A DNA stretch of 27,611 nt from a virus: positions 1 through 27,611 of the IMG/VR virus record IMGVR_UViG_3300006921_000108; one strand, 5' to 3'. The notes beneath the pieces are model-generated. The model made no database searches, was not told the origin of the DNA, and was given only the letters and a program-made list of their open reading frames with translations. A program made the position numbers and the translations under genes. Below, piece by piece: positions 5,684 to 14,978 of the stretch (positions are counted from its first letter, which is position 1; each line of letters opens with the position of its first letter).

Positions 5684-7267
5684 TTATTCTGGTTTGTAAA
5701 AAACCATAATCGGTTCATACTTGAGGAACTTGCCGTCTACCTTACAGTAGTTCTTGCACTTAGGCAATCCATCCTCGCCTATTCGGTTCTGTCCCGGCAT
5801 CGATTCCAATGCCATTTTCAACCTGTATTTATAGACCAAACCAAACGATTCTAGAATATCCTTCGAGTCCTGTTCGAGTGGTAGGTAACTGCCTTTGATA
5901 AGGACATCGGCAATATTCCACAACAGGTATCTACCCGGCCGAAGGTATTCGGCACAAGTCTCAAGTGTCGGTGCAAGGAAACCATGCCTCCATGACTCAT
6001 ACGAACTACCGTACTTTTTGTATGACTGGTTCTCATCCTCACTATATGCTTCACGATTAAAGTATGGCGGCGAAGTGAAGATCATATCCAACTTGCCTTT
6101 GTACTTTCTGAAGTCAGGGTGGATGTGAACTACTTCAGATCCTTCCGAGAAAATTTCGTAAGTATTCGTCTGAGAAAAGAATGGATTGCCTCGGTAAGTC
6201 TTGGCATTGTAAAAATCAGCAATATGTTGATACTTACTAAGACCACTATCGGGAAAAATGTTATCAGGGTTGGGGTCGGTTCCAACATAATGAATATTCC
6301 GATCATCACGCACGGACATAGCGCCAAGGATACGACCACCCCATCCAGAAGAAGGATCGTAAACATTGATCGTCTCTTGATCTTTGATGTGTTCAGTGTA
6401 TCTTTCATACAAATACTTCGCTGTCATCGGCGGGAAGTTAACGGCAGGTTGGATGTATCCAATCCTGAACGACTTTAGTCCGGCCGGGAAGACACGATTG
6501 CCCTTCTTGTAAATGCGAATTGCGTACAACCTATCGTCAGGAAGATTCTCAATATCAAACGTCGAGTGGTGACGATACGAAAGTTTGGGGATCCACTTCT
6601 CCAACTGCTCTTTTGTTAATTGGAGGATGTCTGTCTGTTGGATTTGAAAGTAACCACTATTAAGTCCCTCACGGATCTTCACCTGCTCCAGAAGGAAGTC
6701 ATATCCCTCAAACACTTCCGGACTAGTAAAGAACGCTTTCATCCAAGACATGGCATCAGGAACATCAACCACGGAATACTTCGTACTAAACTTGATAGCA
6801 GAGAGTGCATGGTTGTAGAAAGAGTCACGGCGAAGGTGTCGCAATGCACCTTTGTAAATCCTCTCGAACTTTGTATCGTCGGCAAACAGATCATAAATCG
6901 AGTACCCATTATCACTATCACTATAGTTGATTCTGGTCTTCATCATATTAGAGAAGAACTGATCTACCTCAACACCCATCCGTGACTTGTTTACAATCAC
7001 ATCGTCTTCAACATCAGACAGTTCATCTGTCTTTGTAAATGTGTGTACAGGATACTCAGCAAGTTTGTTCCAGTTGTCGATGATGACATCTTCGGTCTTA
7101 CCCATACGAGGTGGACTGCCGGTTTCATCCCATGACTTGAGAATGGTTTTCCGCATCTCTCCTACCCACACACGAAACTCGTCGGGTGTCATCGACAAAA
7201 GATCTTCGAACAGAACATTCATTTCTGATTCAACGACTGCTGTATTTTTTTCGTAAAAGGGTTTCAT
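5684..7267 (-). CDS. DNA methyltransferase-like protein (N4-C/N6-A type, SPPY)
   Basis: From ATG 7267 the protein has 527 aa. A Rossmann-type methyltransferase domain fills the second half. Motif I VYDPSSGWGGR (residues 302-312) is the S-adenosylmethionine loop, VGTDPNPDN (328-336) the following acidic strand, and TSPPYFN (398-404) the catalytic motif IV of amino-methyltransferases. A further WRHGF-LAPTLETCAEYLRPGRYLLWNIAD segment fits the later strands. The first 230 residues match nothing I recognise and could be a target-recognition or partner domain. A TTG at 7282 is possible, but the ATG forms an ATGA overlap with the upstream PLP-like gene. No restriction partner is visible, so it is probably a modification enzyme; target base and product are unknown. 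Confidence 0.82.
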   Translation of the reverse strand: MKPFYEKNTAVVESEMNVLFEDLLSMTPDEFRVWVGEMRKTILKSWDETGSPPRMGKTEDVIIDNWNKLAEYPVHTFTKTDELSDVEDDVIVNKSRMGVEVDQFFSNMMKTRINYSDSDNGYSIYDLFADDTKFERIYKGALRHLRRDSFYNHALSAIKFSTKYSVVDVPDAMSWMKAFFTSPEVFEGYDFLLEQVKIREGLNSGYFQIQQTDILQLTKEQLEKWIPKLSYRHHSTFDIENLPDDRLYAIRIYKKGNRVFPAGLKSFRIGYIQPAVNFPPMTAKYLYERYTEHIKDQETINVYDPSSGWGGRILGAMSVRDDRNIHYVGTDPNPDNIFPDSGLSKYQHIADFYNAKTYRGNPFFSQTNTYEIFSEGSEVVHIHPDFRKYKGKLDMIFTSPPYFNREAYSEDENQSYKKYGSSYESWRHGFLAPTLETCAEYLRPGRYLLWNIADVLIKGSYLPLEQDSKDILESFGLVYKYRLKMALESMPGQNRIGEDGLPKCKNYCKVDGKFLKYEPIMVFYKPE

Positions 7268-8028
7268 GCTCCAACATTCCAAAAAAGTGCGCCGGGACTA
7301 GCATGTTCTTTAATGAACTGCCAGGCCTTAGCGTCATAGGTAATCGCTGATGGGAAAGGTGGTATCACCTTTGCGGGTTTATTAAAAGCAATCTCGCACT
7401 TGTACGTCTTTGCTCTTCCGTAATTTCCTTTGTGTCCAACGGTAACACAATGAAAGTCTGCATCTGGCCAAGCGAGTTGGAGTCCTCGCGTAAGGGTTCC
7501 TGATGATCCAACTGTCCATACTTCGTTTGGTCGAACATCGCACCGTAAAGCAACCCTAATGATGGAAGCGATAACAGTAGGATGGTCAAAACCAATAGGG
7601 AGTAATGCACGGCGGTTTCTATCTTCTGCAACATAATCTCTCGCTCTCTTTTCTGTGACACTCAACATCCCGTTGGGTATCCATTTCATTATAGCACCTT
7701 CATGTATTGCTTGCAACTGATAATCATGAAGTTTATCCCATGCCCTTTCGGCCATGAAAACTACTGCCTTTTTACCATATCTGCGGCATAAGGAAGCAAG
7801 AGAAATCTGTGCGTACCCAGTTGCCGGAGAACTCCCATATACCCATTCTTCGATCTCCTCGTTAGATTTAATTAAGTAATCGGCGAATCGCATCTTCGAT
7901 CCACCACCAAGTAGGTCATCACGAACAACTTGTATGCCTTCGTGTTCCTCGATCACGGGATCAGGCAACGTGTCTTGCCAATCACCAATCAGAGGAAGGT
8001 AGTCACTAATTGTTTCTTGGAATAACAT
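7264..8028 (-). CDS. PLP-dependent enzyme-like protein (fold type II)
   Basis: The protein has 254 aa. The pattern resembles fold-type-II PLP enzymes such as D-cysteine desulfhydrase, ACC deaminase and cysteine synthase. LLGGGSKMRFADYL (39-52) provides a candidate Schiff-base Lys45. YGSSPATGYAQISLASLCRRYGKKAVVFM matches the substrate-loop plus helix plus strand segment. WTVGSSGTLTRGLQLA (171-186) matches the glycine-rich phosphate-binding loop. The ending YDAKAW...GALFWNVGA resembles the family's last strand, but the protein is shorter than typical 300-plus-residue members. It starts one base after the gp46 stop and overlaps the methyltransferase by 4 bases, so the two are probably partners. 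The reaction is unknown, and assignment by eye is moderate. Confidence 0.62.
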   Translation of the reverse strand: MLFQETISDYLPLIGDWQDTLPDPVIEEHEGIQVVRDDLLGGGSKMRFADYLIKSNEEIEEWVYGSSPATGYAQISLASLCRRYGKKAVVFMAERAWDKLHDYQLQAIHEGAIMKWIPNGMLSVTEKRARDYVAEDRNRRALLPIGFDHPTVIASIIRVALRCDVRPNEVWTVGSSGTLTRGLQLAWPDADFHCVTVGHKGNYGRAKTYKCEIAFNKPAKVIPPFPSAITYDAKAWQFIKEHASPGALFWNVGA

Positions 8029-12536: not shown

Positions 12537-14030
12537 CTAAATTTTAATATTTACTTGCCGAACTTTAAATTGCTCAGACTTGTAAATCTTAATTCGTTCT
12601 ATAAAATGCCTTAGAGTATGATTTTTATATGACTTCCAACTGAGATCATCTCCAATGTCATATAGGTGTGCTGTCTTCTTATCGTCCGACTTTCGTAACT
12701 GCCTTCCTATACTTTGTAAAACTCGAATTCTGCTTTTTGATGGGGATGCGAAAATGATATTATGTAGTTTGCGAATCGAAATTCCTGTACTAAACGTGCC
12801 ATAAGACGCTACTATGATAGCGTCGTTTTCTTTCTCTGTGATTTTTCTGATTTGTTCTCTGGTTTCAACATCGGTGCCTCCATGAACAAAGAAGATCTTA
12901 CGGTCTGGATTCTTCTTCTCTAGTATACTATGTAGGTATTTTCCGTGGTTATCTACGAATTGAAACAGAACAAGAGTATTACCCTTCAATGAAAGTGCCA
13001 TATCACGAATGAAATTGTTTCGTTTTTCGTTAAACACCAACCATTTCATCTCGTCCTGATACTTTAATTTTTTTGCTTCTTTTTTCTCTTCCTCGGAGTA
13101 AGACAGAAGAATAGAATCGATCTCCAATGATGAAACCAAATCTTTATCCATCAATGACTTCGTAGAGATAACATTGTATGTCGGTCCAAACAGACCCTCG
13201 ATTACTAGTTTGTGTGTTGTCGTACCATCAAGAGTTCCTGTTGTCCCGATGCGATATGGACAGTCGGTTAACTTTGTCATAAGAGTAGTGAGTGACTTCG
13301 CCTTGAACAAGTGACACTCATCTCCGAACACAGCACCGAACTGATCGAAGTATTCTTTCGGTTGCTTGTATATGCTTTGCCATGTGGACACGACAACACG
13401 CTTGTCTGTGTTCTTGTCTCTGCCAGCAAAGATGGCATGGCAGTTCTTTTTAGCATTCCATTTATTAATTTTAGAATAATCTGAAAAATCTGACAACATT
13501 TGAGAAACCAATGATGTTGTTGGAACAATGATCAGAAGTTTCTTGTCCTCTGGAATGATGTCCATATAGTAACGAATCAGGGAGTAGATAATCAAACTCT
13601 TACCAGAGGCAGTAGGAGACAGAAGAAGACACCTATCAGAATTCATTGCGTGTGTTACCGCATCAATCTGATGATCATGTGCTTCGATTGCCTCGCCATT
13701 TGCATGTGGTTTCAGAAACTCGTTTATATACTTTTTCGTTTCGTCTGATGTTTTTCGTTTGCCTTTTTTCTTGGGCATATCCAACGAGTATGAATACTGA
13801 CGATCTTCTGCGAACTTTACAACATAAGACAACAAACCCTTGTATAGAGTTTGATCAAAGACGTTATATAATTTGATAGTGCCGTCCCACATCCGGTTAC
13901 GGTATTGGGGCATGAATTTATAACCCGGAACTTTGAACGTGAAAAAGTCCGAAAGTTCCTTGGAAATGCTTCGTTCACATCGAATCTTGATATGAACGGA
14001 GTCAACATGTTCAATAAACAAATCACTCAT
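12537..14030 (-). CDS. uvsW: DNA/RNA helicase UvsW
   Basis: UvsW is a superfamily 2 helicase that unwinds R-loops and branched DNA, ending early origin use and aiding recombination. From ATG 14030 the protein has 497 aa against 503 in T4. The N-terminal domain (HIKIRCERSISKELSDFFTF, YRNRMWDGTIKLY) matches T4. Walker A SPTASGKS is at 138-145, DECH at 237-240, TTGTL soon after, and motif VI QSIGRQLRK at 439-447. The open frame runs to 14114, but that would overlap the previous gene by 68 bases. The 14030 start aligns with T4, although its ribosome site is weak; ATGs at 14093 and 14090 are alternatives. Confidence 0.95.
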   Translation of the reverse strand: MSDLFIEHVDSVHIKIRCERSISKELSDFFTFKVPGYKFMPQYRNRMWDGTIKLYNVFDQTLYKGLLSYVVKFAEDRQYSYSLDMPKKKGKRKTSDETKKYINEFLKPHANGEAIEAHDHQIDAVTHAMNSDRCLLLSPTASGKSLIIYSLIRYYMDIIPEDKKLLIIVPTTSLVSQMLSDFSDYSKINKWNAKKNCHAIFAGRDKNTDKRVVVSTWQSIYKQPKEYFDQFGAVFGDECHLFKAKSLTTLMTKLTDCPYRIGTTGTLDGTTTHKLVIEGLFGPTYNVISTKSLMDKDLVSSLEIDSILLSYSEEEKKEAKKLKYQDEMKWLVFNEKRNNFIRDMALSLKGNTLVLFQFVDNHGKYLHSILEKKNPDRKIFFVHGGTDVETREQIRKITEKENDAIIVASYGTFSTGISIRKLHNIIFASPSKSRIRVLQSIGRQLRKSDDKKTAHLYDIGDDLSWKSYKNHTLRHFIERIKIYKSEQFKVRQVNIKI

Positions 14031-14046
14031 ACCTACTATGTATGAG

Positions 14047-14541
14047 TTAAGGGAAGAACGATCTTCCTCTGATTTTGACTTCAATTTCATCATGGGTAAA
14101 AATTTTACCTTCATAGTATTCTATATCAACACCGAACCTGTTCAGGAGGTTAAGACCAACCTGACATGACTTTCTTGATTGTGTTGGTACTTTGTCGAGA
14201 GCGTTTTTATGATATACAACTTTAGAGATACCGGCATCTACGATGTACTTGCAAGATCTAGGAGACGATCCCCAAGGAACAAATAGTATCGTACCTTCTG
14301 TTGGTAGATTCGCCATTTTAAATTTATTGATTACGTTTACTTCTGCGTGTTCTGATAAGTAACGAAGATACTGTGGTGCCGACATCCACTCTTGGTAGTT
14401 TTGTATTGTATTAGAAGCACCACCAAGAATTTCTCCTTGGTGTTCAAAACCGATACCAGCGGCATTTTTATCTATTGGGTTTGTACTATTACAGGCAATT
14501 CTATATACTTGCCTAAAGTACAGTCGATGTGCTTCGTTCAC
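14047..14541 (-). CDS. cytidine/dCMP-deaminase-like protein with altered zinc motif
   Basis: The protein has 164 aa. The layout follows the cytidine/deoxycytidylate deaminase fold: an N-terminal helix (QVYRIACNST), a strand AAGIGF, then SEHAEVNVI with His65-Ala66-Glu67, the usual zinc ligand and proton-shuttle glutamate. ILFVPWGSSPRSCKYIVDAGISKVVY (85-110) occupies the place of the usual PCxxC motif. Counted from Trp90, the two ligand positions read Ser93 and Ser96, with Cys97 one residue late. It may be inactive, or use a different site. The start is GTG at 14541, supported by GGAG 7 bases upstream, and shares one base with the uvsY stop. Confidence 0.68.
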   Translation of the reverse strand: MNEAHRLYFRQVYRIACNSTNPIDKNAAGIGFEHQGEILGGASNTIQNYQEWMSAPQYLRYLSEHAEVNVINKFKMANLPTEGTILFVPWGSSPRSCKYIVDAGISKVVYHKNALDKVPTQSRKSCQVGLNLLNRFGVDIEYYEGKIFTHDEIEVKIRGRSFFP

Positions 14542-14978
14542 TATGAAACTCCGTTAGTAAACTTCTTCCATTCGATGGCATTACGGATCTTCCAGTGCCT
14601 GTTATTCAGTTCTTTGATGAAGGACTCGACGTAGTTCAGTTTCTCTTTTGCGAGAACAATTTTGTCTCGCATGAGGCACAAATCATCATCAGAGTCAAGG
14701 TACAGATCAAGATCTTGTTTTAGAATTTTAAGGTCAAAGGGTTCCCACTCAAGGCGTTCCAGATCTTCTTCTGACATTTTACCTGTGTAGTATTCCCACT
14801 TGATTCTCTTGAGAGACCTATAGTCTCGTTCAATCTTAGATAGATCGAACTTACACTCCATGAGAATATTCATGTACTTATTGTGTAGTTGTGGAATCTT
14901 GAGAGATTCGATATCCAGTGCCGTATCGTCAACGACAGAATCTCTCTCTGCCATACGCCGTAGTTCATCAAGTTTCAT
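14541..14978 (-). CDS. uvsY: recombination mediator UvsY
   Basis: UvsY loads the UvsX recombinase onto SSB-covered DNA. The protein has 145 aa against 137 in T4. The pattern matches T4 UvsY: MKLDELRRM and DSVVDDTALDIES at the start, LHNKYMNILMECKFDLSKIE, a basic patch RSLKRIKWEYYTGK, then LKQDLDLYLDSDDDL and the helical end with a RHWKIRNAIEWKKFTNG segment. AGGAGA precedes the ATG. A sigma-70-type promoter lies in the gap to the upstream gene. uvsW is two genes downstream, as expected for a recombination block. Confidence 0.9.
   Translation of the reverse strand: MKLDELRRMAERDSVVDDTALDIESLKIPQLHNKYMNILMECKFDLSKIERDYRSLKRIKWEYYTGKMSEEDLERLEWEPFDLKILKQDLDLYLDSDDDLCLMRDKIVLAKEKLNYVESFIKELNNRHWKIRNAIEWKKFTNGVS

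Follow-up and report, generated by a model that had tools for sequence, protein, structure and literature searches.

A gene located between uvsY and uvsW in a fragment of an uncultured T4-like virus probably encodes a catalytically dead protein of the dCMP-deaminase fold that is kept for a non-catalytic role. The two halves of this reading differ in strength: zinc-dependent deamination has very likely been lost, because of the residues replaced in the protein, and a selected non-catalytic function is likely, because of the substitution rates of the gene. The window, that is the whole stretch of 27,611 bases analysed here, presents a T4-like gene order on the minus strand, with prohead and capsid genes, a tail-tube-like gene, uvsY, the gene under study (the slot gene) and uvsW (Table 1), followed farther along by a late-sigma-like gene and then by the 47/46 recombination pair; gene names other than uvsY, uvsW and the SbcD-like subunit were assigned by reading, with the help of the annotated order of phage Mosig. 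The stop codon of uvsY and the GTG of the slot gene have one base in common. On the other side, the uvsW frame is open up to position 14114 and an upstream in-frame ATG yields a 68-bp overlap with the slot gene. This overlap is an annotation choice that disappears with the MSDLFIEH start, and the UvsW frames of several relatives also start near that position. Elsewhere on the minus strand, the 532-aa product of 5684-7282 matches a DNA methylase below threshold (24.8 of 26.7 bits), and that of 7264-8028, with 254 aa, weakly matches PLP-dependent enzymes (17.6 of 35 bits).

Table 1. Features of the slot gene and its neighbours in the window
Feature	Coordinates	Strand	Detail
Putative pseudo-dCMP-deaminase gene	14047..14541	-	164 aa, GTG start
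HAE codons, residues 65-67; zinc-His and catalytic-Glu positions kept	14341..14349	-	HAE in 94/94 intact relatives
SSPRSC, residues 92-97; Ser93 and Ser96 on the zinc-Cys columns, Cys97 is Val in L005	14251..14268	-	family alignment
Asn44 codon, kept in the window	14410..14412	-	Asn in 94/94 intact relatives
GGAG, probable ribosome-binding site within the uvsY 3' end	14549..14552	-	7 bases before GTG
uvsY, recombination mediator	14541..14978	-	phrog_231, E 1.9e-40
uvsW helicase, start taken as MSDLFIEH at 14030	12537..14030	-	phrog_16, E 2.3e-97

The region expected to hold the zinc cysteines reads PWGSSPRSC (residues 89-97), and re-reading of the codons gave TCG for S92, TCT for S93, TCT for S96 and TGC for C97. 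In the family alignment, the columns of S93 and S96 are occupied by Cys in 94/94 intact relatives, so the PCxxC cysteines are absent from the window protein while HAE is intact, as the original prediction had described. With the positions conserved in 92-94 of the 94 intact sequences as reference, the window protein carries the changes C93S, C96S, D21N, T24D, Q25K, K57Q, R68V, R98K and W122S. These positions are lost throughout the Ser-Ser group, which is made of three distinct proteins, and S19, N44, E64, H65, E67 and G145 are retained there, together with A66 in two of the three. G(Y/W)N(A/G), described as the allosteric motif of dCMP deaminases in the accessible part of PMC12088426, is absent too, GASNT being found in its place, and the PF00383 score is 19.2 bits, below the gathering cut-off of 25. 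The protein would thus not bind the catalytic zinc nor deaminate, and the inactivity assumed in the first of the options put forward originally, an inactive regulator, fits with the loss of both cysteines along with that of D21, T24, Q25, K57, R68, R98 and W122 on a predicted dCMP-deaminase fold. What speaks against a dead enzyme is that His65, Glu67 and Asn44 are kept in 3/3 distinct Ser-Ser proteins (the HxE motif is present), residues that a protein would not have to retain after a mere loss of catalysis. The protein could then still be an enzyme, a zinc-free or otherwise metallated deaminase or hydrolase using these three residues, and the unrelated dCTP deaminase family is indeed described as working without zinc (PMC12088426, seen in part). 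Nevertheless, this is very improbable in view of the other conserved residues lost and of L005, the most divergent Ser-Ser copy, which has HPE instead of HAE and Val at position 97. The latter substitution also makes a shifted zinc site unlikely, because the Cys97 on which the originally suggested new metal site would depend is not conserved.

The window protein is predicted to keep the dCMP-deaminase fold. From family alignments that include intact members, and so helped both models towards a deaminase fold, AlphaFold2 produced a model of the window protein with a pLDDT of 92.2 and a pTM of 0.88, and one of L063, from a second inactive group presented below, with a pLDDT of 93.1 and dCMP deaminases ranking first among its matches. 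For the window model, rows 1-15 of the Foldseek search of the PDB were all dCMP deaminases (E 3.3e-9 for 7fh4, 8.6e-9 for T4 1vq2 and 2.7e-8 for human 2w4l), and VIA-align superposed it on a dCMP deaminase with a Z of 18.6 and an rmsd of 1.8 over 135 residues. A structure unrelated to deaminases, which had been named as a possible refutation, was therefore not what the model showed.

The Ser-Ser form was found on five contigs, window included, corresponding to three distinct sequences: the window, L001 (= L002 = L003) and L005. An IMG/VR protein search with the window protein returned three contigs at 97% identity, and the genes of L001, L002 and L003 are nucleotide-identical among themselves, with a protein 97% identical to that of the window. 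The L005 protein is 86% identical to the window protein and has Ser at both zinc-Cys columns; its codons at residues 92 and 93 differ from those of the window, the residues being the same. A sequencing error or a mutation of a single phage is ruled out by the same residues in L001/L002/L003 and L005. Homologues with an intact CxxC had been expected to reveal such a local error: 94 distinct ones do exist, but the Ser-Ser form is common to the protein's own lineage, and for that reason it is an evolved loss. Searches with conserved stretches of the whole gene, in the form of two N-terminal patterns, and with its central section gave no further full-length member of the lineage, and the N-terminal patterns added one contig with the first 29 codons only.

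In uncultured T4-like viruses, the uvsY-uvsW slot holds a deaminase-like family, represented by 144 ORFs (106 distinct) in 174 sequences. Among the 106, a tally pooling scans of which A4 used the pattern EHAE[RV]... and A3 was aimed at the second inactive group, 94 are intact (HAE and both Cys), three are Ser-Ser and seven are without His, Glu and both Cys. The remaining states are those of L078, without Glu, and L021, truncated; both were left out of the residue counts, and L021 also out of the trees. L078 (3407-3961, plus strand) keeps both cysteines, HSA replacing HAE. The gene is flanked by uvsY upstream and uvsW downstream in 93 of the 106, by uvsY and then the contig end in 7, by uvsW only in 2 and by uvsW and the contig start in 1, with neither gene in 3. 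The deaminase-like gene between uvsY and uvsW proposed from the window, where its neighbours match phrog_231 and phrog_16, was thus recovered as a family. We also looked at the best 80 of more than 596 uvsY loci, several of them repeat fetches of one contig: a family member directly follows uvsY in 51, uvsW comes next without the gene in 27 and the sequence ends after uvsY in 2. The 51 members comprise 41 intact, 4 Ser-Ser, 4 lacking His/Glu/Cys, 1 without Glu (L078) and 1 truncated (L021). That the inactive copies are full-length frames carries little weight, the search having been confined to open frames.

The family profile matched dCMP deaminases in the PDB (7fh4 at 3e-30, 2w4l at 9e-22, 4p9c at 2e-18 and 1vq2 at 4e-16). 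Intact members are 19-35% identical to the window protein. Four of them (L019, L049, L057 and L082) match PF00383 at 1e-15 to 5e-18 (57-65 bits), and no PF00383 match was obtained for L005, L063 or L074. The intact slot proteins are unusual in their own right: the strict G(Y/W)N(A/G) motif was found in 0/94 of them, and their substrate is, from their sequences, not certain either. The residue before the first Cys is mostly Ala or Ser in these members, and Pro in 1/94.

Seven distinct proteins (L053, L063, L074, L077, L091, L095 and L097) make up the second inactive group, which is also encoded at this slot. All seven have lost D21, E64, H65, E67, R68, C93 (Thr), C96 (Asp) and R98 (Ile), and N44 is lost in 4/7; Q25 is kept in 7/7, T24 and W122 in 6/7 and S19 in 3/7. 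L063 gave no Pfam match at E <= 1 and would probably be annotated as hypothetical. The window protein is 19-22% identical to this group, versus up to 35% to intact members. We favour two separate losses of catalysis, because the cysteines are replaced by Ser/Ser in one group and Thr/Asp in the other, the lost positions are partly different and the identity is only 19-22%; a single origin, as one joint inactive clade, was not rejected by AU tests (p 0.43; p 0.25). The topologies of two trees agree with separate losses. When the motif columns were removed before building the gene tree, the Ser-Ser and His/Glu/Cys-less groups stood apart, with the caution that the Ser-Ser group is where long branches join. 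In a UvsY+UvsW tree, a quick search of 112 rows without L005, the window and L001 group with the intact L098/L099/L125 (SH-aLRT 98).

Selection on the slot gene was estimated by the Nei-Gojobori method. For the Ser-Ser group, which is small and young so that its conservation spans little time, dN/dS was 0.234 (window-L001), 0.143 (window-L005, with 42 synonymous and 28 nonsynonymous changes) and 0.135 (L001-L005). Three pairs of the second group gave 0.093, 0.143 and 0.168, the fourth (L063-L091) being saturated at synonymous sites, and five intact pairs gave 0.124-0.175. In the same genomes, values were 0.02-0.04 for uvsY and 0.02-0.09 for uvsW. With similar ratios, the inactive and intact versions are thus under comparable purifying selection, and uvsY and uvsW are more strongly constrained than either. 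These values bear on whether the gene is simply decaying, catalysis having become redundant and the open frame not being lost yet. Such decay would agree with the absence of the gene from 27 of the best 80 uvsY loci, which makes it dispensable in some lineages, with the mild constraint on window-L001 (one-sided binomial test against neutrality, P 0.006) and with the extra motif changes of L005. We consider it unlikely, given that the same test yielded 1e-11 (window-L005), 4e-17 and 6e-11 (two second-group pairs), and that the confidence of the fold prediction is high.

Retention of a dead deaminase fold as a functional module has precedents. Inactive deaminase-superfamily domains are already known, the eukaryotic ones being partners or scaffolds. 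ADAT3 and the N-terminal APOBEC3 domains are deaminase folds without catalysis that serve as partner or nucleic-acid-binding modules; they retain zinc and act beside an active partner. The Ser-Ser contigs G001 (84.8 kb) and G002 (128 kb), both fragments, gave neither an active partner of this type nor a second copy of the family, and such a partner may come from the host. The closest precedent in the literature consulted is the N-terminal domain of human CDADC1, described in the accessible part of PMC12088426 as inactive, dCMP-deaminase-like and architectural, as we propose for the window protein. In contrast to the latter, it is fused to an active domain, keeps PCxxC and has lost the Glu (HAG) rather than the cysteines (PMC12088426, same part). 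The zinc dCMP deaminases themselves (T4 1vq2, PBCV-1 bi-DCD 7fh4, cyanophage S-TIM5 4p9c and human 2w4l) have the predicted overall fold, HAE, Asn44 and single-domain size in common with the window protein, which differs from these DCTD enzymes by the absence of the zinc cysteines and of the allosteric motif and by the loss of other positions of the slot family. The intact uvsY-adjacent proteins resemble it in their slot (nearly always) and, by profile, in their fold but, unlike it, keep HAE and both Cys.

dCMP deaminases are reported to be ring-shaped homohexamers (PMC12088426, seen in part), an architecture in which a dead subunit could mix with, and block, zinc deaminases of the host, for instance anti-phage dCTP deaminases. 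The cores are related, as the intact L137 and L019 match the anti-phage deaminase model NF041025 (2e-13 and 3e-12) and the PADLOC dCTPase model (6e-14 for both) in the deaminase core. These scores reflect the shared catalytic core, however; none exceeds 50 bits, where the curated cut-off is 400, and the window protein itself reached only E 0.085 on NF041025 and had no PADLOC dCTPase match. A decoy or dominant-negative subunit is thus the least probable of the explanations considered here.

Under the dead-enzyme reading that we prefer, loss of deamination may have been affordable, as dUMP can also be obtained from dUTP. The Ser-Ser contig G002 carries ThyX as well as a dUTPase whose C-terminus has the typical GGFGSTG. 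The dCTP deaminase model also hits this dUTPase gene, at 41 bits, which we read as a cross-match because the dUTPase model gives 66.7. Such a bypass would be permissive at most and not explanatory, because G004 and G006 have ThyX and dUTPase beside an intact slot gene, and neither enzyme was found in G001. The window gave none of ThyX, ThyA and dUTPase, and ThyA was not found in G001 nor in any other of the 13 records examined; the Ser-Ser records are all fragments. PF00383, which missed the window gene in G000 and would therefore miss degenerate copies, was found once each in 7/13 records, the three Ser-Ser records not being among them. The A5 profile, covering 10/13 records, matched the Ser-Ser records at exactly one place, the slot gene.

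Without catalysis, the protein would most likely be kept as a protein-protein module, that is an oligomer partner, a scaffold or a regulator, of the nucleotide-supply or recombination machinery. T4 dCMP deaminase reportedly binds other replication proteins in the dNTP synthetase complex, according to the Mathews laboratory. A scaffold or partner role tied specifically to the neighbouring recombination or nucleotide proteins can be proposed tentatively: the link of the slot gene to recombination is its position next to uvsY alone, and the gene is missing from about a third of the best 80 uvsY loci. The regulator or recombination-linked nucleic-acid-binding derivative suggested originally would likewise draw on the position beside uvsY and uvsW only. 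Somewhat more speculative is a second, non-catalytic job of the whole family in recombination or nucleotide supply, already present in the zinc-bearing members. Catalysis would then be dispensable and would have been shed independently, through Ser-Ser, through His, Glu and both Cys in the L063/L074 group and through Glu alone in L078.

Concerning cultured phages, the window protein has distant matches only (12 records, each below 60% identity), L063 has none, and the A4 scan of bacterial and archaeal genomes gave no relative. An annotated deaminase between uvsY and uvsW was seen in 0 of the ten cultured phages opened, namely nine at uvsY, out of 574 records matching it, and one at a deaminase match, out of 958 records. 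In five of the nine (DSL-LC02, Melnitz-3, ACP17, DSL-LC03 and S-SCSM2R), the gene right after uvsY is uvsW, a helicase or one of the size of uvsW. Mosig and syn9 have a 2OG-Fe(II) oxygenase there (Pfam match), HTVC008M a 276-aa protein without Pfam match and Cr30 several reversed small genes. Slot contents vary also across L178, L180, L182, L183 and others (oxygenase, 276-aa protein, reversed genes, deaminase-like gene or nothing). The uvsY-uvsW slot is a site where small accessory genes come and go, and position therefore weighs less as evidence for a role in recombination. A deoxycytidylate deaminase has been reported in pelagimyophage group C (PMC7029224, seen in part). No report of an inactive uvsY-linked deaminase was found in the literature searched, whose coverage leaves out most subscription papers.

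Active-looking and inactive phage versions thus occupy one syntenic position by a recombination mediator, the inactive ones under selection. Together they are a naturally occurring collection for seeking a non-catalytic function of the dCMP-deaminase fold, and they offer a concrete way to test for physical ties between the nucleotide-supply and recombination proteins of phages. In addition, 'dCMP deaminase' labels on such genes can mislead about activity. Finally, synonymous divergence between L005 and the window is uneven along the locus, with 0.54 in the slot gene, 0.26 in uvsY and 0.10 in uvsW (255 codons), which suggests a mosaic ancestry around the slot.
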